A stretch of DNA of 64,000 nucleotides from Nanobdellota archaeon (GTDB lineage Archaea > Nanobdellota > Nanobdellia > Woesearchaeales > UBA9642): positions 1 through 64,000 of the forward strand of contig JAKAKR010000016.1 of NCBI GenBank assembly GCA_021813435.1, written 5' to 3'. Made by a program: the position numbers and the translations under genes. Below the pieces are notes generated by a model. It did not search any database. It worked only from the letters and a program-made list of their open reading frames with translations, and was not told the origin of the DNA. This document shows, in pieces, positions 2,865 to 28,139 of this stretch; positions within the stretch are counted from its first letter, which is position 1; every line of letters begins with the position of its first letter.

Positions 2865-3662
2865 TTATCCTCCCAGATATGCTTCCAGGACGCGCGTATT
2901 GTTTTGGATCTCGCGCGGCGTCCCGCGTGCAATCATGGTCCCTGCCTCAAGGACAAAGATCGTTCCTGCAAGCCCCATGACAAAATTCATATCGTGCTCG
3001 ATAATGATGATAGTCTCGCCACGCTCTTTCAATGATTTGATGATATCCATGATTTCCACACGCAGTTTGGGATTGACCCCTGCAACCGGTTCGTCAAGGA
3101 GCAGGATTTCGTGCGGTTTTGCAAGTGCGATTGCAAGATCGAGCAATTTGCGCTGACCATAACTCAGATCCGATGCAGGAGTGTCGAGCGGTTTTTCCAG
3201 ATGCACGAGCGATAGGATCTCCTGCATCCTGCGCGATTCCTCGCGTTTATGGTGGAAGAGTTTATCCCAGACACTTTTTGCAAGCGACTCATCCGTGCTA
3301 CTGAGCGCTATTGCAAGATGCTCTTTGATGGTCATATTCTTGAATAGTCGTACTTGCTGGAATGTCCGTGATATCCCATGTTTTGCGACCTCAAAATCCT
3401 TGCAGGTCGTAATGTCAATAGCATTGAGTATGATCTTTCCGTAATCAACAGGGATGAGGCTTGTTATTGCGTCAAAGAGTGTTGTCTTACCGCTTCCGTT
3501 CGGCCCGATGATTGCAGTGATTTCTCCGGCATGTATCTCCAGCGTGCAATGATCAAGCGCTTTTATCCCGCCAAAGTGTTTGCTCACATCAACTACCTTG
3601 AGGATTACACGCGGTGACGCAGGGCGAGGATTTTGTTTTGATGAAGTGTTTTGCGGTGTCAT
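2865..3662 (-). CDS. livG: Branched-chain amino acid ABC transporter ATP-binding protein LivG
   Basis: Second ATPase of the Liv importer. Walker A (GPNGSGKT) lies near residue 55, the signature is Leu-Ser-Tyr-Gly-Gln-Arg as usual for LivG, and Walker B reads LLLLDEPVAGVNP. The C-terminal extension ending near 'NTRVLEAYLGG' is the LivG-specific tail. The first ~20 residues (Ser/Pro/Lys-rich) are not part of the domain, so the start may lie further in. It is separated from livF by about 50 bases and from livM by about 53 bases. Confidence 0.93.
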   Translation of the reverse strand: MTPQNTSSKQNPRPASPRVILKVVDVSKHFGGIKALDHCTLEIHAGEITAIIGPNGSGKTTLFDAITSLIPVDYGKIILNAIDITTCKDFEVAKHGISRTFQQVRLFKNMTIKEHLAIALSSTDESLAKSVWDKLFHHKREESRRMQEILSLVHLEKPLDTPASDLSYGQRKLLDLAIALAKPHEILLLDEPVAGVNPKLRVEIMDIIKSLKERGETIIIIEHDMNFVMGLAGTIFVLEAGTMIARGTPREIQNNTRVLEAYLGG

Positions 3663-3715
3663 GGTGGATTGTGCATTACATGCATAGTGATTATGATTCG
3701 TGATGTTCTCCTATT

Positions 3716-4591
3716 TCATTCAAGGTCTATTTTTCCGAACAAGCCCTTAGGCCTAAGGAGTATGATAGTAAGCAGGATTATTGCATAGATGATCTGCCGA
3801 CCAGGACCCAGTATAGTACTGGGAAGATTCAGGAACCGCAAAAGTTCGGGGACCACAATGATGATTGCTGTTGCAGCAACCGTTCCCTTGATCGAGGCAA
3901 TCCCTCCGACGATCACAATCGTGAATACCAAGATGACTTCTGTCAGCATGAATGAGGAAGGATCAATATAACTGATATAGTGCGCAAAGAGCGATCCTGC
4001 GATCCCAGCAAAGAATGCAGAGACCATCATCACCTTGTACTTCACCTTGAAGGTGTCCTTACCTAAGGCGCGAAGGCCGATCTCATCGTCGCGTGTAGCG
4101 GCCATAAGCCTACCGAATGGAGAATGGGTGATGATATACATGATAAAGATCGAGATGAGCGCAATGAGCGCTGCAAAAACAAGGAATGCTGCATTTGCAG
4201 AAAGGCAAAACCCGAAGAAGCAGGGCTTACTGATGCCCGGTATCCCTAAGGGCCCGCGCGTGAGCGAAATCCAATTCAAGAGAAGCGAGTAGATGACAAA
4301 GCTGAATCCCAGTGTTGCAAGTCCAAGATAATCCCCGCGTAATTTTCTTGTCGCATAAACAAGTATGTAACCAAAGACGCTGGTAAAGAGCCCTGCAATG
4401 ATGAATGCCCATAGGAAAGGGAATCCTGCAGCCATGGTGAGAAGTGCAGAGGTATATGCGCCGATCCCAAAGAACGCAATGTGTCCCATATTCATAAGAC
4501 CCGTATATCCGAGTGTCAGGTTGAGACTGACTGCAAGGATGCAATAGATTGCGACAAGGATAAGAATGTGGATGATATATCCCTCAATCAT
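3716..4591 (-). CDS. livM: Branched-chain amino acid ABC transporter permease LivM
   Basis: Integral membrane permease of 291 residues with about eight hydrophobic segments. The family features 'LNLTLGYTGLMNMGHIAFFGIGAY' (abbreviated here to its GYTGL and GHIAFFGIGAY parts) near residues 25-45 and the EAA-like loop 'RALGKDTFKVK' near 190 are visible. It pairs with LivH to form the channel. Its ATG overlaps the livH stop codon by four bases (ATGA), indicating translational coupling. Confidence 0.94.
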   Translation of the reverse strand: MIEGYIIHILILVAIYCILAVSLNLTLGYTGLMNMGHIAFFGIGAYTSALLTMAAGFPFLWAFIIAGLFTSVFGYILVYATRKLRGDYLGLATLGFSFVIYSLLLNWISLTRGPLGIPGISKPCFFGFCLSANAAFLVFAALIALISIFIMYIITHSPFGRLMAATRDDEIGLRALGKDTFKVKYKVMMVSAFFAGIAGSLFAHYISYIDPSSFMLTEVILVFTIVIVGGIASIKGTVAATAIIIVVPELLRFLNLPSTILGPGRQIIYAIILLTIILLRPKGLFGKIDLE

Positions 4592-5466
4592 TTTCTCGCC
4601 CCCTTGTCAATGCCGAATAATCCGTTCGGTACAAATAAGAGGAATATGAAGAGAAGTATAAATGCGATGGCATCCTTATATTCTGATGGCAAGAACCAGA
4701 CACCGATATTTTCGACAAATCCCAAGATATAGCTTCCGATGATTGAACCCGGAACCGAAGCAATTCCTCCGACGACCGCACCGGTGAATCCTTTGATGAT
4801 AAGGCCGGTTCCCATGGTCGGCGTCAGGCTTTGTTCTATCGCGATAAGGATTCCTGCGATCCCTGCAAGCACTGACCCGATGATGAATGAGAGATCCGCG
4901 ATCCAGCGGTAATTGATGCCGATGATGCTCGTCAATTCCTTATTGTCAGATACTGCACGCATATTCCTGCCGGTCTTGGTCTTATTCATAAAGAGGTATA
5001 ATCCTGCAAGCAGGAGCAGCGAAACGACGATGATTGCGATCTGGACTGGTGTGATGATGGCTCCAAGAATTGTTAATCCCTTGCCGATCTCAAAATAACT
5101 GATGGTCTTTACATCCGGACCATAGATGAGCATGATACTATTTTCGATAAGAATCAAAAGGCCGAGCGATGCGATAAGAAGGATGATGTTCGAGGATTGG
5201 CGCTGTTGGAGCGGCGCATAGACGATCCGGTACGAGATAAGCCCCACAATCGCTGTGGCAATGAGCGTAAGGATACAGGAAATATAAAAATTCAGATGCG
5301 CAAGCGAGAAGAACGTAAATAAGAGGTATCCGCCTAGTGCGACCATGACTCCATGCGCGAAATGCATGAACTTATTGGTTGAGTAAATCAGCGAGAACCC
5401 TGAAGCGACAAGGGCATAGATGCTGCCGATGATGAGCGAGTTTGCAATGATCTGTGCAGCAATCAT
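4588..5466 (-). CDS. livH: Branched-chain amino acid ABC transporter permease LivH
   Basis: Permease partner of LivM, 292 residues with eight or so hydrophobic segments. The N-terminal 'GSIYALVASGFSLIYS' followed by 'FAHG' and the 'VGGIASVPGSIIGSY' loop near residue 235 are family hallmarks. An AGAGGA ribosome binding site precedes the ATG. It is the first gene of the livHMGF series. The matching substrate-binding protein is encoded upstream on the same strand at 6632-8815, with a methyltransferase and a small membrane protein in between. Confidence 0.94.
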   Translation of the reverse strand: MIAAQIIANSLIIGSIYALVASGFSLIYSTNKFMHFAHGVMVALGGYLLFTFFSLAHLNFYISCILTLIATAIVGLISYRIVYAPLQQRQSSNIILLIASLGLLILIENSIMLIYGPDVKTISYFEIGKGLTILGAIITPVQIAIIVVSLLLLAGLYLFMNKTKTGRNMRAVSDNKELTSIIGINYRWIADLSFIIGSVLAGIAGILIAIEQSLTPTMGTGLIIKGFTGAVVGGIASVPGSIIGSYILGFVENIGVWFLPSEYKDAIAFILLFIFLLFVPNGLFGIDKGARK

Positions 5467-18696: not shown

Positions 18697-19001
18697 TTAT
18701 TCGACATCAATCGCGCTAAGCAGCGTATTCAGGTTTACTGCAAGCTTCTTGTAATCTTTTTCAAGATATGATTGTTCTATTGCAATCCAATCCTGCGCGT
18801 AATATTTTACGTACACAGAATGTGTCTTGCAATCGATCGCTTCAACCTTTTACATGCACTATACACTTCGATTGCACGCTTCTCAAGCATCCCCAACTCA
18901 TCTGACGTATATTCAAGTGACTTTTTCAGGAACGGGAATTGTCCATTGAGCCAATCCCTCAAATCATACCGATGATGGGAGGTTATTTGAAATTCATTCA
19001 T
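18697..19001 (-). pseudogene. Frameshifted fifth member of the operon's cysteine family
   Basis: The first frame (start 19001) encodes 'DLRDWLNGQFPFLKK' and 'LEKRAIEVYSACKRL', matching the helical domain of the four neighbours, then stops at 18807. The next frame continues the homology: an 'IDC' segment at the position of the family's invariant Cys and a C-terminal helix, ending at 18697. Adding one A to the AAAA run near 18865-18870 joins the frames. It lacks the SH3-like N-terminus and the 'HHGT' end. It could be a decayed gene, a real frameshift or a sequencing error. Its start overlaps the preceding gene by eight bases. Confidence 0.6.
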
Positions 19002-19896
19002 TTTTGCCCCCAATAGGATTTACATATGCCATAGTTGCATCAAAATCATTATTTTTTTTCACAGCGTCGTATCTGGCGGGTTTACTCTCATTTCTTATAT
19101 CAAAATTATCATACCTATCAAAAAGGTCATATCTGTCGAAATGTTCACGCCTGCCAAATAATCCAGAGTAATAGCTTTGATTCGCATATGCTGTACGACA
19201 ACCGTCTACAGGGATTACTCGATCTATCTGTTCTATAAACGTTGTTTCTGGACCCTTGAATTTTTTAACAACGTGTTTCAAATATTTAACATCCTGCTTA
19301 GTGAGTCTGGTTAATTCCCCAATCAATATATAATTATTTTTTCCATCAAATTTTTGTCTTTCATTAAATACAAGATATCTTGTTGAAGTTCCATTTTCAT
19401 CTCCTATTCTATACACAAAAGCGTTAAGATTTCCAAATGAAAACCTGCCGTAACCTGCCCCATCCAAATATCGTCCTGCTTCGGTGTGATGTTTATCTCC
19501 TCCTAAACTTATGGATAATTTTTCTAATGAGCTCACAAAAGCCTCTAAACTTCTTGCTCTATTATTTGGATTGCCTGTGGTTCCAAATCCCTCCTCAAAT
19601 TTATTCCAACCGTAGCGTAATCCTGCAGTAGCGCAAGCTTCCGTGGATAAGACTCCATGATTGACTGCGCCTAATGCTGCTTGATATATCTCTTCCTTAC
19701 GGCTCTCTAAATCTTGATATACTCTTCTTTTTTTTGCGTATGTTTTAAGGTCAGGGAATTGTTCTCTAATCCATAGTGCAAATTCTTCTCTAACATTAAA
19801 TACGGGCTTGAACTCTTTACTCGTTGAATGCATTTCTTCAATCGGGGACTCTCCCAGTAGTAAATCATCTAGTTTATCGTTTATCATTTTAATCAT
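18994..19896 (-). CDS. Cysteine-family paralogue D with extra C-terminal domain
   Basis: About 300 residues. The first third lacks the SH3-like domain and begins directly with the family's helical module: 'EFKPVFNVREEFALW', 'QFPDLKTYAKK' and the invariant Cys88 in 'TEACATAG'. After a 'KHH' motif it has an extra ~150-residue domain not seen in its paralogues, with short Phe-Asp-Arg-Tyr repeats near the C-terminus. The domain 'YLVFNERQKFDGKNNYILIGELTRL' region (split here by its YLVF and ILIGEL parts) looks beta-rich. The start is uncertain: ATGs at 19896 and 19887 are both possible. It overlaps the preceding gene by a few bases. Confidence 0.6.
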   Translation of the reverse strand: MIKMINDKLDDLLLGESPIEEMHSTSKEFKPVFNVREEFALWIREQFPDLKTYAKKRRVYQDLESRKEEIYQAALGAVNHGVLSTEACATAGLRYGWNKFEEGFGTTGNPNNRARSLEAFVSSLEKLSISLGGDKHHTEAGRYLDGAGYGRFSFGNLNAFVYRIGDENGTSTRYLVFNERQKFDGKNNYILIGELTRLTKQDVKYLKHVVKKFKGPETTFIEQIDRVIPVDGCRTAYANQSYYSGLFGRREHFDRYDLFDRYDNFDIRNESKPARYDAVKKNNDFDATMAYVNPIGGKNE

Positions 19897-20746
19897 CCAT
19901 TTTCTTTGTTCCGTGATGTTTTTTATAGCCATTGCTTGAAATACTCTCTAGGTTCAATGAGAGGAATTCAATAAAGCTGACAAATTTTTCTAATCTAGCA
20001 GCAAACACACCAGAATATGTTGCAAAATCAGAGTAGTACAGGCCATCCGGTTTTTGCCCGTTAAATGTGCAATAAACAGTTCTGAAATCAATTAATGCAC
20101 AGCCTCTAAGAGTTTTTGTCCCGTGTTCATAAGCCATTTTTGCTCCATTCATCACTTCGATTTTTCTTTTTTCTAAAGAGTCGTATTCTTTTTCTTTTTT
20201 AGCGTAATCTTTTAATTCAGGGAATTCCTGCCTGACCCATACTGCATATTCTTCTCGTGGATTGAATTCTGGTTTGAATGGCTCGCTCTTTTTTATAGAG
20301 TCATCTGTTGTTTTGGAAATCTCATTACCATAATTCTTAATTCTTAACATGATCTTTTTATACTGCTCTGCAAGATTTAGCTTAATTAAAACCTTAGGAA
20401 CAACGACTTCTTCGATACTCATTGGTTCTTTTTTTGCATCTTTCTGTGTTGTAGGTTCCTCTAGTTGCAACATTTTTTCTAATTCTGAGTCTTTTTCTTT
20501 TTGCCTTTTCTTTTCTACTTCTTCAACTTCTTTGCTTGTACATAATTCATCGGGATGAACACTCCATGTTGTACCATTCGATAGTCTTACGTATATTTCT
20601 TTTTCGCTTACACTTTTGACAATCCCTTTCGATCCTAAAGGAACATCGCTAACACTACCACCATAATAATACCCCGATTTTCCATTTCCATGTTCTATTC
20701 CAAGATTTCTTCTGATGACAACATCCTGGCCTTTTTCGTAATTCAA
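19889..20746 (-). CDS. SH3-like/cysteine-family paralogue C
   Basis: 285 residues. Residues 1-68 form a beta-rich, SH3-like module ('GQDVVIRRNL', 'GSKGIVKSV', 'WSVHPDEL'). A charged coiled-coil linker (70-155) follows, then a helical module with 'FKPEFNPREEYAVW' and invariant Cys216 in 'RGCALIDF', and a C-terminal 'YKKHHGT' motif. No named family was recognised. It starts with TTG, overlapping the E1 stop by four bases with GGTGA upstream, so translation is coupled to the E1. A 207-base stretch is identical to paralogue B. The conserved Cys and His residues next to E1 and JAMM genes make an E2- or E3-like role possible but unproven. Confidence 0.65.
   Translation of the reverse strand: MNYEKGQDVVIRRNLGIEHGNGKSGYYYGGSVSDVPLGSKGIVKSVSEKEIYVRLSNGTTWSVHPDELCTSKEVEEVEKKRQKEKDSELEKMLQLEEPTTQKDAKKEPMSIEEVVVPKVLIKLNLAEQYKKIMLRIKNYGNEISKTTDDSIKKSEPFKPEFNPREEYAVWVRQEFPELKDYAKKEKEYDSLEKRKIEVMNGAKMAYEHGTKTLRGCALIDFRTVYCTFNGQKPDGLYYSDFATYSGVFAARLEKFVSFIEFLSLNLESISSNGYKKHHGTKKMDD
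20261..20467. repeat. 207-base direct repeat, copy 1 (in paralogue C)
   Basis: This stretch appears identical to 22535-22741, an offset of 2274 bases. It encodes the linker and the start of the helical module. The flanking parts of the two genes have diverged, which points to recent gene conversion or to selection on this linker. Confidence 0.85.
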
Positions 20747-22155
20747 CTTCCATCACCCTTTTCTCCAATTGATGCATATTTCTCTTTCAAATCACACAAC
20801 CACTCATGGATATCGCTACGAGAACAATCGCATGGATTGCTTGCACCCACTAATCCTCCCCTAGTCGAAACATTAGCATCATATTTGAGGATTCTCGAGA
20901 CTGGAGCGCCATACCCTTTATCAATCACTTTCAATGCTTCCCCAATCATCATTCCCCCAATAACTTCATTAGTCATAATTACACTAGGATCCGGCTCATC
21001 AGTACATTTATTGCCCTGCAGCGATATCCCGAGAGCTTTTTCAACACCCATTTTGCAATCAAGGCAAGCACTTTGCCCCGGTTCATATACGACAACCTGT
21101 CCCGAATGCGCATTTGTGCCGCCGCTGACTAGAGGAATACTATAATGCACTGCAAAATAATTTATGATGGCCCTTACTGAGAATTTATCAACACAATCAA
21201 ATATAAGGTCTGGCTTCTTTTGAGAGAAATATGTTGAATTCTCATCTAATTTTCCCACCAATCCCTCAACATGTATATTTGGATTAATTTTCTTAATTTT
21301 TTCTGCTAATGCAGCGGACTTTGCTTTTCCGACAGCATCATAAAATAGTATTTGCCTGTTGAGGTTATGATCTTCTACCTCATCATAATCTAAAATATCA
21401 ATATAACCAAATCCTTCTAATGCTGCTCCAAGAGCAACAAAATTACCCAGTGCACCTGCGCCAACTATCAGGATTCTTTTTTGTGATATATCTTCATAAG
21501 GTTGCGCGTCAAATTCTTTTTCAGCATTAAATCTTCTTTCAACAGTCGCATTGTAAACTAATTTTTTAATCGGTTTTTCTCCATCGGCAAGAGGCATTAT
21601 ATGCTTTCGGGTCTCTTCAGTGATCATTCCTCCGAATAGTTCACTACTAAAATTTCCTTGAGTCTCGCCAGCGTATTCTGATAGATTTGCGCCATTGACG
21701 TCTTCTCCGGGTTTTACATAATATAGTGCTCCTCCAGTTTTATCTGTTGATGCTGATATAACACTAATCCCTTCAGATGAAGCATAGTTCATCACTCTAT
21801 CTTTGAGATCAGGAGTATTTGTCAAATCTAAAATCAGGTCAGTTTTCTTATCGAGTGACCTCTCGAGGGAATCATCAATTTTGGTCTGCTTGACTTTTAT
21901 TCCAGAATTTATTTGTTGCAGTATATTCTCTATTGATTGGTTCTCATAGTTTTCAGATAAGGAAGTTAAGAATCCCTTATTTACACCATCATCATAAATT
22001 TCTATATTTCCTATCCCTAATGCTGCTAATGATGCAGCAGTAAACTGGGATAATGGACCACTACCGATGATTGCAACCTTTGCATCAGTTAATCTATTCT
22101 GATCCCAATTCTTAATCCGTTGTTGTCTATCATATCGAATATTGTCGTTTGTCAT
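20743..22155 (-). CDS. Tandem two-domain E1-like (ThiF/MoeB/Uba1-type) activating enzyme
   Basis: 470 residues with two ThiF/HesA folds. Domain 1 (about 1-200) has a nucleotide-loop-like 'IIGSGPLSQF' and looks degenerate. Domain 2 (about 205-430) is complete: GAGALG (232-237), 'DYDEVEDHNLNRQ' with the Arg finger (255-267), 'GKAKS', zinc ligands Cys364/Cys367 with Cys442/Cys444, and a candidate catalytic Cys384. This inactive-active order resembles the adenylation domains of eukaryotic Uba1. No ubiquitin-fold domain is present. It should adenylate the C-terminal glycine of a ubiquitin-like protein. It sits between paralogues B and C and near JAMM and ATPase genes in one operon. Confidence 0.85.
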   Translation of the reverse strand: MTNDNIRYDRQQRIKNWDQNRLTDAKVAIIGSGPLSQFTAASLAALGIGNIEIYDDGVNKGFLTSLSENYENQSIENILQQINSGIKVKQTKIDDSLERSLDKKTDLILDLTNTPDLKDRVMNYASSEGISVISASTDKTGGALYYVKPGEDVNGANLSEYAGETQGNFSSELFGGMITEETRKHIMPLADGEKPIKKLVYNATVERRFNAEKEFDAQPYEDISQKRILIVGAGALGNFVALGAALEGFGYIDILDYDEVEDHNLNRQILFYDAVGKAKSAALAEKIKKINPNIHVEGLVGKLDENSTYFSQKKPDLIFDCVDKFSVRAIINYFAVHYSIPLVSGGTNAHSGQVVVYEPGQSACLDCKMGVEKALGISLQGNKCTDEPDPSVIMTNEVIGGMMIGEALKVIDKGYGAPVSRILKYDANVSTRGGLVGASNPCDCSRSDIHEWLCDLKEKYASIGEKGDGS

Positions 22156-22156
22156 T

Positions 22157-23020
22157 TTATTTTACCTTTACTGTTCCATGATGTTTTTTATAACCTCTGC
22201 TTGAGACACTCTCTAAGTTGAGTGAGAGAAACTCAATAAAGCTGACAAATTTTTCTAACCTCTTGGCAAAAGTTCCAGAATCTGTTGCAAAGCTGGGGTA
22301 GCACAGATCTCTAGGATCGCCACCTGTTTTTCCATGAAGTACGTCATAGATATTCTTGAAATCAGTTAACGCGCAACCTGTGGCGGTTTTCATAGCATGA
22401 TCATACGCTTTTTTTGCACCATCCATAACCTCTGTTTTTCTCTTTTTCAAGGAATCGTATTCTTTTTCTTTTTCAGCATATTCTTTTAATTCAGGGAATT
22501 CCTGCCTAATCCATACTGCATATTCTTCTCTAACATTGAATTCTGGTTTGAATGGCTCGCTCTTTTTTATAGAGTCATCTGTTGTTTTGGAAATCTCATT
22601 ACCATAATTCTTAATTCTTAACATGATCTTTTTATACTGCTCTGCAAGATTTAGCTTAATTAAAACCTTAGGAACAACGACTTCTTCGATACTCATTGGT
22701 TCTTTTTTTGCATCTTTCTGTGTTGTAGGTTCCTCTAGTTGTAGTATTTCTTCTAATTGTGAATTCTTCGCTTCTTGTCTCTTCTTTTCTGCTTCTTCTG
22801 TTTCTTTGCTTGTACGTAATTCGTTAGGATGGACATTCCACCTGTTACCATTTGATAATCTTACATCTATTTTTTTCTCACTCACGTATTCGATAGTTCC
22901 TTTCGATCCGAGAGGAACATTGCTAACGCTACCACCATAATAATACCCCGATTTTCCATTTCCGTGTTCTATTCCAAGATTTCTTCTGATGACAACATCC
23001 TGACCTTTTTCGTAATTCAT
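22157..23020 (-). CDS. SH3-like/cysteine-family paralogue B
   Basis: 287 residues from the ATG at 23020, chosen to match its paralogues' 'MNYEKGQDVV' start. The SH3-like module (1-68), charged linker, helical module with Cys216 in 'TGCALTDF', and C-terminal 'YKKHHGT' follow the same order as paralogue C. The two proteins are identical over residues 108-162. It begins three bases after the stop of paralogue A and ends one base before the E1 start, so the three are translated from one message. Function unknown; see paralogue C for the proposed role. Confidence 0.65.
   Translation of the reverse strand: MNYEKGQDVVIRRNLGIEHGNGKSGYYYGGSVSNVPLGSKGTIEYVSEKKIDVRLSNGNRWNVHPNELRTSKETEEAEKKRQEAKNSQLEEILQLEEPTTQKDAKKEPMSIEEVVVPKVLIKLNLAEQYKKIMLRIKNYGNEISKTTDDSIKKSEPFKPEFNVREEYAVWIRQEFPELKEYAEKEKEYDSLKKRKTEVMDGAKKAYDHAMKTATGCALTDFKNIYDVLHGKTGGDPRDLCYPSFATDSGTFAKRLEKFVSFIEFLSLNLESVSSRGYKKHHGTVKVK
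22535..22741. repeat. 207-base direct repeat, copy 2 (in paralogue B)
   Basis: Identical to 20261-20467. Outside this block the genes differ at many positions, except for a second near-identical stretch of about 100 bases encoding the SH3-like start (around 20650-20746 and 22925-23020). Confidence 0.85.
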
Positions 23021-23025
23021 TTTAA

Positions 23026-23823
23026 TCAATCCATTATCGCGGTTCCATAGTGTCTCTCTTCTCTTCCATTGTTAAGATTATAGGATACATAAATGATATA
23101 CTTGAGAAAGTCATTTGTAGATCGCGTAAAATAATTTGTTTTACTTGATTCTACTAATGCGTTATACTTATCCGCAAAATTTCTCTTTACACAGTCCGTT
23201 GTTGTATCCATTGCATGTCTATATGCTTTTTTTGCTCCCCCGAGTACTTCTTCCTTTCTTTCAATTAATGCGATATACTTTTCCCCTCTTCTTGCATAGG
23301 TATCTAGTTCTGGAAATTCTTTTTTTAGCCAAACCGCATATTCTTCTCGTGGATTGAATTCTGGTTTGAACGGATTTCCTGCGTTCGATGCCACTTCTGT
23401 TCTTGATTTTCTAAAATAATTCAGGATTTTACTTACAATTCCTGTGTGTGTTTCCTTTTGATATTCGGTTCTGTTGCCCGTGTTTTCTTTTATGGCCTCT
23501 CTGTCTGTTATAATCTCTTCTTCTGTTTTAGGTTCTGCTACTTGTAGTATCTCTTCTAATTTTGAATCTATTATTTTTTGCCTTTTCTTTTCTGCTTCTT
23601 CATGCTCCTTGTTTGTACGTAATTCATCGGGATGAAGAGACCATTCTGTGCCATTCTGCAATTTTACATATATTGATGTTTTACTTACGCTTTCAATGAC
23701 TCCCTTTGATCCTAGAGGAACCTTTCTAATACTACCCCCATAATAATACTGAGATTTTTCTCTTCCATTTGCTATTCCAAGATTCCTTCTGATGACAACA
23801 TCTTGGCCTTCTTCGTAATCCAT
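23026..23823 (-). CDS. SH3-like/cysteine-family paralogue A
   Basis: 265 residues from the ATG at 23823, which aligns with its paralogues. An upstream GTG at 23874 would add 17 unrelated residues. It has the SH3-like module ('GQDVVIRRNLGIA', 'WSLHPDEL'), a linker that differs entirely from B and C, the helical module 'FKPEFNPREEYAVW', invariant Cys211 in 'TDCVKRNF', and a variant 'RHYGT' end. The linker divergence beside conserved ends suggests that the termini carry the function. It follows the JAMM gene after a short gap. Confidence 0.65.
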   Translation of the reverse strand: MDYEEGQDVVIRRNLGIANGREKSQYYYGGSIRKVPLGSKGVIESVSKTSIYVKLQNGTEWSLHPDELRTNKEHEEAEKKRQKIIDSKLEEILQVAEPKTEEEIITDREAIKENTGNRTEYQKETHTGIVSKILNYFRKSRTEVASNAGNPFKPEFNPREEYAVWLKKEFPELDTYARRGEKYIALIERKEEVLGGAKKAYRHAMDTTTDCVKRNFADKYNALVESSKTNYFTRSTNDFLKYIIYVSYNLNNGREERHYGTAIMD

Positions 23824-23880
23824 GTTATCATTTCTCCCAAGGTCTTTTCTTATTTCTGCTGCTGAGATACTCACTCACGG

Positions 23881-24807
23881 TCAGTATTTATCATCTTCCT
23901 GATTAGGACTAAAACCAAAATCAGGTTTAGTCAATGTCCCGGTGGTTTTCTTTTCTTCAAAAACTGAAGGCAAAAAATAATCTATAAGCTTCCGCGGTCT
24001 TTCAACAATTACCTTTTCATGGATTTCAGCTTTCAACTGATCATTATCTAATTTATATTCTTCTCCATCAAATATCTTGTAATTGACACGTTCACTTACA
24101 TCTTCAACATTCGCACAATTAAGGCATAAATCTCTAGTTGCAACTTCACAATACGGCACTCTTTTACTAAGCCATCTATGATGATTAACCACAAAACTAT
24201 ACGCAAACCCCACTCTTTTCTCTTCTAAAATCTGCAATTCTTGTGCTATGAGTTCAGGATTTTCTGTTTTTAATCCTATCCTGTAAGTGATTGATTGGTT
24301 TTCGGGATCCCAGAATATCAAATTGTTTCCCTCAACTCTGCTTTGCAAACCTCTGTACACCTTTTCTTTAGGGGATATGATATAATTGGAAGGAGAGATC
24401 TCATTTAACAAGACCATCTGATTATTTACATCAATTTTAGAATGAAATGTTTCATATCTTCCATGACTATGCCACCAGCCAACGATTTTTCTTCCCTGCT
24501 GATCCAACTCTTTACCTGCTTTAATGACATGTTCAGCACTTAATACGTACTCTCCCCGGTATACTTCTTGTTCACGAGGAAGAAACGCGTCTGTAGCTAC
24601 ACGATCCCTGGCATCTTTTGCCTTAGTGAGAAACCCTCCTATCTCAACATTCTTATTTCTGCTAAATTGCAAAACAAGCGCTGCATACCTGAATGCTTTA
24701 TCGTATGCAAACCGCGATATGTGCAATTCGTCAATACCAAAATTTTTGATCGGTACTTGATGTTCTACGGGTTCATCTCCTTGAAGGAGTGCATCTATGT
24801 TTGTCAT
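23881..24807 (-). CDS. JAMM/MPN+ metalloprotease (candidate deubiquitinase-like isopeptidase)
   Basis: 308 residues with a complete JAMM zinc site: Glu55 in 'VEIGGFL', His113-Ser-His115, seven residues, Ser123 and Asp126 (HxH-x7-S-x2-D). JAMM enzymes such as Rpn11 and archaeal HvJAMM1 remove ubiquitin-like proteins or trim their C-terminal tails. The C-terminal half adds a Cys-x(n)-Cys-x-x-Cys cluster near residues 195-215 that could bind zinc. A strong GGAGGA site precedes the ATG. It lies directly after the candidate ubiquitin-like gene, so a natural job is to expose that protein's Gly-Gly end and to reverse conjugation (inference). Confidence 0.88.
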   Translation of the reverse strand: MTNIDALLQGDEPVEHQVPIKNFGIDELHISRFAYDKAFRYAALVLQFSRNKNVEIGGFLTKAKDARDRVATDAFLPREQEVYRGEYVLSAEHVIKAGKELDQQGRKIVGWWHSHGRYETFHSKIDVNNQMVLLNEISPSNYIISPKEKVYRGLQSRVEGNNLIFWDPENQSITYRIGLKTENPELIAQELQILEEKRVGFAYSFVVNHHRWLSKRVPYCEVATRDLCLNCANVEDVSERVNYKIFDGEEYKLDNDQLKAEIHEKVIVERPRKLIDYFLPSVFEEKKTTGTLTKPDFGFSPNQEDDKY

Positions 24808-24839: not shown

Positions 24840-25277
24840 TTAAATTCTATAGCCGCCTTGCTGTACCGCAGAGACTTCTATCTCGAGTTGCTGATAATTG
24901 ATTTTTTTACCAGCAACGTCCTTGTTTGCTTTGATAATGTAATCAGATACTTTATCAGTCAGTTTTGCATTCTTGCCATTAATGACGATAACACTACCTG
25001 CTGCTCCAAGCTCTTTTTTCAAGCTTGCAGCTGTTGCAGCCTCACTATCTTTTACTTGCGAATCTACAATATAGGCTAACACATCCCTAACACTCTTATC
25101 TACATAGCTTGAAGGAAGCCTTCTCATTAAAGCAGATTCAGAATCGGCCAAACCAGGTCTTGCAGTTGCAATCAAGGGCGTTGTTTCCTCTTGAGAACCT
25201 AAGACTTTCCTTTCTTGTTCTTTTATACTTTTGTATACACTATTTTCTAATCCGTCTTTTTTTTGTAATCCTGTCAT
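24840..25277 (-). CDS. Candidate ubiquitin-like modifier precursor
   Basis: 145 residues. The N-terminal ~85 residues are charged and partly helical. Residues 95-142 could form a compact beta-grasp: strand 'SVIVINGKNAKL', helix 'DKVSDYIIKANKD', strand 'QQLEIEVSAV', ending in Gly141-Gly142 followed by Tyr-Arg-Ile. A Gly-Gly with a short tail is the classic precursor form cut by a protease before E1 activation. The domain is shorter than most beta-grasp folds, so this call rests heavily on the adjacent JAMM, E1 and ATPase genes. GGAGGA lies seven bases upstream of the ATG. Confidence 0.55.
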   Translation of the reverse strand: MTGLQKKDGLENSVYKSIKEQERKVLGSQEETTPLIATARPGLADSESALMRRLPSSYVDKSVRDVLAYIVDSQVKDSEAATAASLKKELGAAGSVIVINGKNAKLTDKVSDYIIKANKDVAGKKINYQQLEIEVSAVQQGGYRI

Positions 25278-25287
25278 TTTATTCCTC

Positions 25288-26754
25288 CTAATTTACATTT
25301 CTCTGTAAATTAATATATCCATGTCTAAACATCTCTTCGTATTGACTGGCTTTTTCTCCAAATACATCTTTCCAGTCGTCTTTTACCAGAGTTTGAGTCA
25401 TTTGTGTTGTCTCATTCAATTCATCTTTGAAAGCACTATAGAGATCATCTTTACATATCCCTTTCTTACCATTTGCAATTTCCCTTTTTATCGCATAACC
25501 ACAGGCTCTTGCAACCATCCCTTCAATCATAGCACCGCTGATGAGATTCTTATATCCGAATTTTCCTAGGCATTGACCATCGGAGCTCATCACCCGATAT
25601 GCCATACTGTCATCTGAGAATATTTCATCAAGAATAGGTGATATAAAATCCCGTACTGATGTAAATGCGCCTTGCAAAGGCTTGTTTTTAAAATAAATAT
25701 CAAATATTTCATTGCAGCCTTTTTTGTTTGGTCGAGGAATTCTGATTTTTCTATCCACTCTACCATCTCTTAAAATCGCAGGATCAAGTATATCTTCCCT
25801 ATTAGTGGCAAGAATTGTTATGACATTATCAGTTGTTGACATACCATCTATTTCTGAAAGCCATTGTGGAACAATAGAATCATACACATCAGTAGATATT
25901 CCTGTTCCCCTCTTTTTTGCAATAGCTTCTGCTTCATCAACAAATACAACTGTAGGTGCTTTAGTTTCCCTCGAATTTTCCCTTGCTGCAGCATAAATAT
26001 TTCTTATATTCAATTCTGAGTTTCCAACATACTTATCTAGAATCTCGGGTCCTTTAACACTTATAAAGTGTGCATTTCCATTATTTGCAAGAACCCCAAG
26101 ATTATATGCAATAGATTTTGCGAGTTTCGTCTTACCACAGCCTGGCGGCCCAAATAATAAAATACCTTTCGCGGGTTTTTTGCCGTAGCGCTCATAGATC
26201 TTGCTGTGAGTTATTGGATATTCTATTTCCTCTTTGATAACAGAAATAACATCTTCTAAACCCCCAATGGTATTCCAAGGAGCTTTCTCTACTTCTTCAA
26301 GCATGTATTTTGTTTTTTTCTTATCAAAACGCTGAAGCGCAATGTATCCACCCTCATCGAGAAGAACTTCATCACCAACTTTTACAGTTCCGTTCATTGA
26401 ATTGTAAACAATGTGCGGCTTTCCATCTTTGATGACTTTTAGTCTGCCATCTTGGATTTCTTCAACAGACACTACTTGACCGGTCGGTGTAGGAAATTCA
26501 GATATACCCATTACTGCTGAAGTTTTTGGGTTCAATATTACTCTTGATCCTCTCGTGATAGATGTTTTTTCGAATTTCTCAGGCACTTTTGCTATTTCAT
26601 AAATCCCCTGATGATCTATTGCAATATGTGTTGTTTTAGTGCCTGAATCCAATACTGTTCCCGTCATATAAGGCGGCTGTTGAATTCGTTCTAATTCATC
26701 TTTAAGTAAAAGTATTTCTTTTTCCGCTTCCTCTAATTTTTGTTTATCATTCAT
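25288..26754 (-). CDS. ARC/Mpa-type AAA ATPase with tandem OB domains
   Basis: 488 residues from the ATG at 26754 (GGTGAGG nine bases upstream). A short coiled coil (about 3-27) leads into 'PPYMTGTVLD' and two OB folds (about 30-90 and 92-145), then an AAA module. Walker A GPPGCGKT is at 202-209, pore loop Tyr-Val-Gly near 242, Walker B 'VVFVDEAEA' near 269, and Arg fingers in 'LRDGRVDR'. The C-terminal part ('SGAMIEGMVARA', 'DDWKDVFGEKA') matches Mpa/ARC proteasomal ATPases rather than PAN, which has one OB domain. It lacks a C-terminal HbYX or Gln-Tyr-Leu docking motif, ending Arg-Asn-Val-Asn. It probably unfolds modified proteins or remodels complexes. Confidence 0.85.
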   Translation of the reverse strand: MNDKQKLEEAEKEILLLKDELERIQQPPYMTGTVLDSGTKTTHIAIDHQGIYEIAKVPEKFEKTSITRGSRVILNPKTSAVMGISEFPTPTGQVVSVEEIQDGRLKVIKDGKPHIVYNSMNGTVKVGDEVLLDEGGYIALQRFDKKKTKYMLEEVEKAPWNTIGGLEDVISVIKEEIEYPITHSKIYERYGKKPAKGILLFGPPGCGKTKLAKSIAYNLGVLANNGNAHFISVKGPEILDKYVGNSELNIRNIYAAARENSRETKAPTVVFVDEAEAIAKKRGTGISTDVYDSIVPQWLSEIDGMSTTDNVITILATNREDILDPAILRDGRVDRKIRIPRPNKKGCNEIFDIYFKNKPLQGAFTSVRDFISPILDEIFSDDSMAYRVMSSDGQCLGKFGYKNLISGAMIEGMVARACGYAIKREIANGKKGICKDDLYSAFKDELNETTQMTQTLVKDDWKDVFGEKASQYEEMFRHGYINLQRNVN

Positions 26755-26842
26755 CTTCATCTTCCTCACCGAGTTTCTCTTTCTTAATTTGATCGATGAC
26801 CTCGCCCTTTGGTTCTGTCATCCATAGATCGTATTTGTTCAT
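26747..26842 (-). CDS. Tiny acidic ORF before the ATPase
   Basis: A 31-codon ORF in the operon, starting 23 bases after the beta-rich protein's stop and overlapping the ATPase start by eight bases. AAGGGT lies seven bases upstream. The C-terminus is a run of Glu and Asp residues. It could be a real small protein or only a coupling ORF that guides ribosomes to the ATPase start. It does not carry the Gly-Gly-Gln/Glu end of Pup. Confidence 0.35.
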   Translation of the reverse strand: MNKYDLWMTEPKGEVIDQIKKEKLGEEDEDE

Positions 26843-26864: not shown

Positions 26865-28118
26865 TCAAAATCCATAATTTGCGATTACGTATAGATGTGT
26901 CTTCTTATTGAGCCCATCGTAGCGTGCTTCGATTGCACCTTTGAAATCCCCGATGTTGATGGGTTTGAATGCTTCAATGATGAGTCCACTCTTTTTTTCC
27001 GTATCATGACCATATTGTGTATTGATCCCGATTCCGAATTGCAGGATGTCATTACGATTTGCGGCAACAACTTCGAATGCCTTTGCTCCATGCTCATTCC
27101 CTTTTGCTTCGACTTTGAGTGCGATATCTGCCTTGGTAGAGACTGGTCCAAGATGCATGGGATTGAATTGGTCGAGACAGAAGTAATTTGATGCAATGTT
27201 GAACATCTCTGTTGAATAGAATCCTTGGTTTACATCGCCGAATCCTGTCTGTGATTTGATCCAGTAGTCTCCTGTCCTGCGATCGTATTTTGCGAATGCA
27301 AATTCTCCGAAATCCTTGAACCCCTTGATTCCTGCAAATCCATAAGTAACATTTGTATTATTTCCAAGTGCAAGATATCCATGTTCAGGATGCACGGCTA
27401 TCCATCCATAGATTCCGGTATTATCAAAATCCATCCATTTTGTTCCGATAAGTCCGCGTGCTGAAAAGAATCCGCCTTCTGCTGTAAAATTTTCATGGCT
27501 TAATCTGGAAATTATAAAGTCCTGTCTATGGGTCTTTTGCCCGACGCCTGTTCCAAGTTCAAGGTATCCTTCGATTTTACCTAGAGACGTTTCGAATTTT
27601 TTCTTTCCATAGAGGTCCAGATAATGGACATCGCGTTCATTCCAATCGCCTGTCTTCAGATATCCTGCACCCAGCGTTATTCCGGCAACTGAGAACTCTG
27701 GCCCGAACATTGTAAGAACATCACCCTGTTCTTTACCGGTCTTGATATCATGTTGTGCGACATATCTGATGAATGTACCATTATTGAATGTGATCTTTGT
27801 GTCTTGCACTCCTGAACCGTTCGCATCAGGTGATTGCGTGATTGATCCTTCCATAGAAATATTTGTAGGTACAAATCCATGTTTTAGCGCATGATTTTCC
27901 TGAGCATCTTTATGCGCATCTTCCTGTAGTTTCTTTGCATAGAGCGCATTAAAAGAATCAAGCTGCGCTCGTGTAGTGTCCTTCTTTTCGTAGAATTGAA
28001 CAGCTGCTGCAGTAGCGATATCTTGCACATATTTCTGTTCGAGCACAGTGGTATCTGGCTGTCCAGATAATGCATTCAACAGCTTCACTGTGTTTACGAT
28101 GTGCGATAGGCTCATCAT
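26865..28118 (-). CDS. Beta-rich hypothetical protein, first gene of the ubiquitin-like operon
   Basis: About 417 residues from the ATG at 28118 (GGAGG four bases upstream). The first ~80 residues are helical; the rest is a long series of alternating strands with Gly and aromatic residues ('GITLGAGYLKTGDW', 'GKIEGYLELGTGVG', 'TNVTYGFAGIKGF', ending 'LYVIANYGF'). The pattern and the final aromatic residue resemble outer-membrane beta-barrels, but there is no signal peptide and archaea usually lack such a membrane. It may be a large soluble beta structure, or a substrate or scaffold for the system encoded downstream. No family recognised. Confidence 0.6.
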   Translation of the reverse strand: MMSLSHIVNTVKLLNALSGQPDTTVLEQKYVQDIATAAAVQFYEKKDTTRAQLDSFNALYAKKLQEDAHKDAQENHALKHGFVPTNISMEGSITQSPDANGSGVQDTKITFNNGTFIRYVAQHDIKTGKEQGDVLTMFGPEFSVAGITLGAGYLKTGDWNERDVHYLDLYGKKKFETSLGKIEGYLELGTGVGQKTHRQDFIISRLSHENFTAEGGFFSARGLIGTKWMDFDNTGIYGWIAVHPEHGYLALGNNTNVTYGFAGIKGFKDFGEFAFAKYDRRTGDYWIKSQTGFGDVNQGFYSTEMFNIASNYFCLDQFNPMHLGPVSTKADIALKVEAKGNEHGAKAFEVVAANRNDILQFGIGINTQYGHDTEKKSGLIIEAFKPINIGDFKGAIEARYDGLNKKTHLYVIANYGF

Positions 28119-28139
28119 GCTACCTCCAATAACCCACAA

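Follow-up and report, generated by a model that had tools for sequence, protein, structure and literature searches.

The window, by which we mean the whole 64,000-nucleotide stretch of DNA analysed here, contains a run of nine minus-strand genes extending from position 26769 to position 18807, in which neighbouring genes overlap or lie no more than about 35 bases apart. The run is headed by a gene for an AAA+ ATPase resembling ARC/Mpa, the proteasomal ATPase of the Pup system (25288..26769; TIGR03689, 378 bits). This is followed by a gene for a ubiquitin-like protein (Ubl) of 145 amino acids (24840..25277), which has a beta-grasp model and ends in ..VQQGG-YRI, with the conserved GG encoded at 24852-24857, and by a gene for a JAMM/MPN+ metalloprotease (23881..24807; Prok-JAB, 30.6 bits, above the cut-off), whose HxHx7SxxD motif is intact and reads HSHGRYETFHSKID in the translation. 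Two paralogs with an N-terminal SH3/KOW-like domain (23026..23874 and 22157..23029) precede the gene for an E1-like enzyme of 470 amino acids (20743..22155), which has an ATG start at 22155. A third paralog with the same N-terminal domain (19889..20746) overlaps the stop codon of the E1 gene by 4 bases. It is 80% identical to the second paralog, and the two copies flanking the E1 gene (22157-23029 and 19889-20746) therefore look recently duplicated. The run closes with two shorter relatives of the C-terminal part of these paralogs: one without the KOW-like domain (18994..19932), which is the last substantial gene of the operon, and a fragment-like relative of 68 amino acids (18807..19013). A 424-amino acid protein encoded just upstream of the operon (26865-28139) has no family match above chance.

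The E1-like enzyme is a pseudo-dimer of two ThiF folds in one chain, one inactive and one active. The Pfam model PF00899 (ThiF) matches the whole protein with 207 bits, its C-terminal half with 161 bits (E 1e-47) and its N-terminal half with 47.8 bits (E 6e-13). Each half exceeds the curated cut-off of 28.1, which makes the protein a member of the ThiF/E1 superfamily and its N-terminal half a degenerate ThiF domain beyond chance. When a profile built from 39 family members was compared with PDB sequences, the top match was UBA1, with two collinear alignments: profile positions 1-156 to the inactive adenylation domain (IAD) of UBA1 (E about 1e-8) and positions 184-380 to its active adenylation domain (AAD) (E about 1e-27). 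The AlphaFold model of the enzyme (pLDDT 92, pTM 0.93) has UBA7, Uba1 and UBA6 as its top Foldseek matches. VIA-align superimposes it on Uba1 with a Z of 33-34 across about 415 residues, whereas the matches to MoeB, ThiF and the SUMO E1 catalytic subunit (Z about 26) cover only about 215 residues. Because the structural matches run from end to end and the UBA1 profile matches are collinear, we assign residues 1-200 (21556..22155, minus strand) to an IAD with a degenerate ThiF fold, and residues 209-445 (20821..21531, minus strand) to an AAD. A reading of this gene made from the sequence alone (the sequence-only reading) had described a degenerate first ThiF fold and a complete second one, and had proposed structure prediction and superposition as a check. 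Both domains are as it described: the model shows residues 1-200 as a ThiF fold, so that the outcome which would have spoken against the reading did not arise. The two halves are homologous ThiF folds, not unrelated Rossmann domains that were fused recently.

The two domains differ in their catalytic residues. The AAD contains a GxGxxG loop, D256/D258, an NLNRQ motif (with R267), K279 and D323, and every AAD of the 28 aligned family members has G232, G234, D256, D258, N264, R267, Q268, K279 and D323. At most of those columns the IADs of the same 28 members have gaps or other residues, and the IAD has no counterparts of N264, R267, K279 and D323. The reverse holds for R10 (codon at 22126-22128, minus strand), part of an N-terminal RYxRQ motif, which is conserved in 27 of the 28 IADs and not in the AADs. 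In the alignment, R10 falls on human UBA1 Arg57, which together with Arg515 holds the phosphate/PPi position; UBA1 Arg515, Lys528 and Asp576 are the equivalents of MoeB Arg73, Lys86 and Asp130 (PMC12355090). This residue pattern is the expected asymmetric wiring of an E1, in which the dead half would lend an arginine finger to the live half.

The sequence-only reading also assigned zinc ligands and a candidate catalytic Cys384 to the second domain, and both are present. Cys384 (codon at 21004..21006, minus strand) is conserved in 95 of 96 family members, the sole exception being a truncated sequence, and the AlphaFold model places it in a loop flanked by two helices (residues 371-378 and 393-411). 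Conservation and model together make Cys384 a candidate catalytic cysteine on a crossover loop, as in UBA5; Cys507 of ATG7 is likewise on the crossover loop (PMC12355090). Conservation of Cys384 alone is no proof of a thioester, because MoeB/ThiF-type enzymes have a cysteine there too. The zinc cysteines (CxxC...CxC; C364, C367, C442 and C444) are intact in the window E1 but not family-wide: C364 is found in 53 and C367 in 47 of the 96 members, and the cysteines are lost in the Desulfobacterota branch.

The spacing between the zinc CxxC and Cys384 is 16 residues in the window E1 and 12-25 in nearly all members, which leaves no room for a Cys domain; by this alignment spacing, the Cys half-domains (FCCH/SCCH) are absent from the 470-amino acid protein. 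Similarly, about 26 residues follow its last zinc cysteine, so there is no C-terminal ubiquitin-fold domain. The likeness to eukaryotic Uba1 therefore holds for the IAD and AAD, which are arranged as in Uba1, but does not extend to the Cys domain and the ubiquitin-fold domain. With the canonical E1s (Uba1/UBA6/UBA7, SAE1-UBA2 and NAE1-UBA3) the window E1 shares an IAD-AAD pseudo-heterodimer, the arginine finger of the IAD and a full set of AAD catalytic residues, but it differs in having no FCCH, SCCH or ubiquitin-fold domain and, probably, in an independent origin of the IAD/AAD split. With the non-canonical E1s (UBA5, UBA4/Uba4 and ATG7) and with MoeB/ThiF/UbaA it shares the crossover-loop cysteine, a compact AAD and the zinc site. 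In those enzymes each chain has a single adenylation domain and two identical chains form a symmetric homodimer, whereas the window E1 is asymmetric.

Within the order, roughly 35 of 193 genomes have full-length or near-full-length double-domain homologues, the most divergent of which are about 30% identical, and a profile search recovered the E1 family in 43 of the 371 genomes of the phylum. A genome scan run with a nine-sequence alignment adds members from Woesearchaeota, Pacearchaeota, Nanoarchaeota, Aenigmatarchaeota, two Njordarchaeota bins and one Asgard-labelled bin. About 35 Desulfobacterota genomes also carry members of the same family. The usual operon in these relatives consists of genes for a Ubl, an E2-like protein, a JAMM protease and the E1. 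Among the same-strand neighbours of 88 distinct family E1 loci, an E2-like gene was found at 76, a JAMM gene at 73 and a recognised Ubl gene at 56. Some genomes, such as G174 and G008 (loci L043, L053, L078, L079, L055 and L081), have at least three copies of the operon, several of them with differing Ubls, as though more than one tag were used side by side.

The predicted structure of the window Ubl is a beta-grasp, and its VIA-align list consists almost entirely of ubiquitin-like proteins, including FAT10 (Z 7.3), SAMP1 (Z 7.2) and the Caldiarchaeum ubiquitin (Z 7.1), with ubiquitin also among the top matches. In the model, the GG aligns with the C-terminal tail of ubiquitin. The Foldseek E-values are weak (no better than 0.017), and since the Z values are also below 8, the fold is supported but not proven. 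In most Ubls of the relatives a (Q)EGG end is extended by a short tail that varies in length. A Ubl precursor with a tail past the GG is also encoded in the ubiquitin operon of Caldiarchaeum subterraneum, together with a JAMM/Rpn11 protease, an E1 and an E2; the Caldiarchaeum operon differs in that its E1 has a Cys-containing domain and a C-terminal UBL and that it includes a RING E3, none of which was seen here (PMC5654768, PMC6043591).

The E2-like family of the relatives has a Cys following an HPF motif in 83 of 85 members. In a comparison with three eukaryotic E2 sequences, its profile alignment with UBE2D2 is weak but falls exactly at HPN...C, and searches of Pfam and of PDB sequences gave no match. 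We consider these proteins putative E2s on the basis of the motif and the invariant Cys. No E2-like protein was detected by profile in the window genome, whereas four control genomes matched with E-values below 1e-99. The E2-like proteins of the nearest relatives (loci L089, L090 and L088) start with the SH3/KOW-like domain of the window paralogs, which are 42-45% identical to the N-terminus of the L089 protein across about 75-90 residues (42% to a relative's E2 N-terminus for the paralog at 22157..23029). We considered whether the paralogs are degenerate E2s and rejected this idea, as in profile comparison only the N-terminal 75-90 residues match and the remainder matches nothing. One reading is that the SH3/KOW-like paralogs have taken over part of the E2 role; loss of the E2 with direct transfer from the E1 is equally open. 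The C-terminal parts of the three paralogs (23026-23874, 22157-23029 and 19889-20746) and of the shorter gene at 18994-19932 have in common a His followed some 7-9 residues on by a Cys. This shared His/Cys would be a possible acceptor site if the paralogs replace the E2.

Two kinds of AAA+ ATPase accompany the E1 family. The ARC-like ATPase of the window matches TIGR03689 with 378 bits over positions 22-506 of 512, compared to at most 222 bits for PAN-type models, and is below the equivalog cut-off of TIGR03689 (378 vs 504.75 bits). An ARC-like gene heads the operon at three loci: the window, L089 (2714-4258), where the order is ARC-Ubl-E2-JAMM-E1, and L094, the locus of genome G045 (3288-4781). 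An ARC score of that level was reached in only three of the 193 genomes of the order, all of which have a double-domain E1. The ARC gene of genome G008 is located on a contig other than that of the operon. A ClpX-like ATPase is instead encoded in 25 of the 88 operons (e.g. L110, L118, L044 and L066), from Desulfobacterota and a few archaea. The ARC-like ATPases have no C-terminal docking tail (GQYL or HbYX), the window protein ending in ..LQRNVN, and no IGF motif was found in the stretch searched of 29 ClpX-like matches, a few of which were incomplete or uncovered. Without these tails and motifs, both kinds of protein may work as unfoldases that do not use standard protease docking. The window genome does encode 20S alpha and beta subunits, as well as other PAN-type and Cdc48-type AAA proteins. 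To our knowledge, no unfoldase has been described in the Bil system, the bacterial Ubl system with which we compare the operon below. Like the Pup-proteasome system, the window operon is headed by an ATPase that matches TIGR03689 from end to end. It differs in that no Pup, PafA or Dop was seen in the window operon and in that the modifier is a beta-grasp Ubl encoded beside an E1.

Taken as a whole, the folds, the residue conservation, the operon and the conserved neighbours suggest that the 470-amino acid protein serves as activating enzyme (E1) in an archaeal system for the conjugation of a ubiquitin-like protein, a reading to which we give a probability of roughly three in four. We infer the chemical steps, and the pairing of this Ubl with this E1, as follows. 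The JAMM protease would trim the YRI tail of the Ubl to expose its GG. The N-terminal half of the E1 would bind no ATP and act as a scaffold that lends Arg10 to the neighbouring active site, while the C-terminal half would bind Mg-ATP and adenylate the Ubl encoded in the operon at its C-terminal glycine. The Ubl would then pass to the crossover-loop cysteine, Cys384, and form a thioester with it. The E2-like protein, with its invariant Cys, would be the next recipient in most relatives. As this protein is missing from the window genome, the E1 there would either transfer the Ubl directly, as happens with SAMPs, or do so by way of the SH3/KOW-like paralogs. Tagged proteins would probably pass to the ARC/Mpa-like ATPase, which would unfold them, and perhaps be degraded by the 20S proteasome, with the JAMM protease recycling the tag.

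The closest single-domain relatives of the window E1 are of the MoeB and ThiF types, and the crossover-loop cysteine and zinc site are common to them and the window E1. An E1 of this kind could instead convert the Ubl to a thiocarboxylate that serves a cofactor or tRNA, as MoeB, ThiF or Uba4 do. We consider sulfur-carrier activation very improbable, given that no rhodanese, MoaE or thiazole gene was seen in the operon, that the conserved JAMM, E2-like and AAA+ unfoldase genes speak against such a role, and that the window genome has a separate single-domain ThiF-type protein (C12, 239 amino acids).

An activating enzyme for conjugation is also known from bacteria. The Bil system comprises a Ubl, an E2, a JAB protease and an E1, BilD, which is an IAD+AAD pseudodimer with a helical Cys domain of approximately 80 residues in the AAD (PMC11354881). 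The suggestion that a fused pair in one chain is essentially a eukaryotic arrangement is thus not supported: BilD provides a bacterial precedent (PMC11354881), and the Desulfobacterota members extend the window's own E1 family to bacteria in about 35 genomes. BilD (PDB 8tyz/8tz0) resembles the window E1 in being a single chain of about 470-500 amino acids with the IAD N-terminal to the AAD, encoded in an operon with a Ubl, an E2 and a JAB protease, and the window model aligns with 8tyz_A with a Z of 33.1 over 379 residues at 14% sequence identity. The two differ in the Cys domain, which spans approximately 80 residues in BilD, whereas the window E1 has only the 16 residues between CxxC and Cys384. 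Among plasmid matches considered as possible BilD homologues, the three examined were MoeB. The literature searched contained no description of a ubiquitin system from DPANN archaea that has an E1 of this kind, though an earlier mention is possible, for example in the BilD structure paper or the 2009 paper on the natural history of E1s. Within that literature, the family is new: minimal IAD-AAD E1s with a crossover-loop Cys, encoded in Ubl operons with dedicated AAA+ unfoldases, in DPANN archaea and Desulfobacterota.

The correspondence with Bil raises the question of purpose, since a Bil-like operon might tag viral proteins in anti-virus defence as opposed to serving housekeeping degradation. 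Such a role would be compatible with the E1 mechanism set out above. The same four activities occur in Bil, including the E1 with IAD+AAD (PMC11354881), and a patchy spread (43 of 371 genomes of the phylum) with several copies in some genomes (G174 and G008) is typical of defence. The direct neighbours of the operon in the window look like housekeeping genes, however (eIF5A-like, M50 protease and Elp3-type radical SAM), and the unfoldase partner is a better fit with proteolysis than with anti-virus defence. Around the window we found nothing specific to a defence-gene context and saw no virus-linked gene; two protein kinases are encoded near the operon, with a likeness to defence kinases confined to the kinase domain. 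On this evidence we regard a defence role as unlikely.

It is an open question how symmetric E1 homodimers such as MoeB gave rise to the asymmetric pair of a dead and a live domain in Uba1, and the sequence-only reading proposed that this gene may inform E1 evolution. We reconstructed a tree of individual adenylation domains (74 domains, 164 columns, with BilD left out), in which the domains are short and the branches long; the eukaryotic sequences used agree with PDB entries (SAE1, UBA3, UBA5 and NAE1). Family IADs (support 100/99), family AADs (100/94), eukaryotic IADs (100/99) and eukaryotic AADs (100/96) each formed one group. The eukaryotic IADs and eukaryotic AADs joined each other (99/88), and the family domains formed one side of a branch (98/89). 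This topology favours a duplication of the family's own that gave rise to its IAD and AAD. It argues against a shared ancestry, in which the family would stem from the IAD-AAD fusion that also led to Uba1, at a stage preceding the gain of the Cys and ubiquitin-fold domains, and would be a living intermediate. Profile scores of the family IAD point in the same direction, being lowest against the eukaryotic IAD (117, vs 156 against single-domain E1s and 141 against the family's own AAD). Forcing all IADs together cost 9.4 log units (AU p 0.082), so common IAD ancestry is disfavoured but not rejected. Other points are in keeping with shared ancestry: UBA1 is the top PDB sequence for the family profile and is collinear with it across both halves, the family is represented in Njordarchaeota and in a further Asgard-labelled bin, and the family is without the Cys and ubiquitin-fold insertions, as expected of an intermediate. 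Canonical E1s come in both one-chain and two-chain forms, which makes the fusion itself a weak character. We consider shared ancestry quite unlikely. From these sequence comparisons, the family appears likelier to represent parallel evolution of the same asymmetric design than an ancestor of Uba1. The family would be a second or third natural instance of the transition from a symmetric to an asymmetric E1, and as its asymmetry occurs without a Cys domain, the order of events (asymmetry before the Cys domain) becomes testable.

Tentatively, these observations can be combined into a broader scenario, which we put forward as a possibility. A separate Ubl-conjugation lineage, present in DPANN archaea, Desulfobacterota and a few archaea affiliated with Asgard, may have arrived on its own at a pseudo-heterodimeric E1 that consists of one chain and has no Cys domain, and may have become wired to dedicated AAA+ unfoldases. 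At the three loci with a Pup-type ARC/Mpa, a beta-grasp tag would then feed a motor otherwise used with Pup. In the window, the system would operate without a classical E2, which would be replaced by SH3/KOW-like paralogs that share the N-terminal domain of the E2. The association of a Ubl, and in relatives a full tagging set, with a Pup-type or ClpX-type unfoldase would bridge two worlds of degradation tags that are usually thought to be separate, and it would do so in one of the least studied groups of archaea, the window archaeon having a tiny genome.

At some loci of the relatives a large radical SAM protein is encoded downstream of the operon, for example at L060:620-3136, where the gene follows that for the E1.
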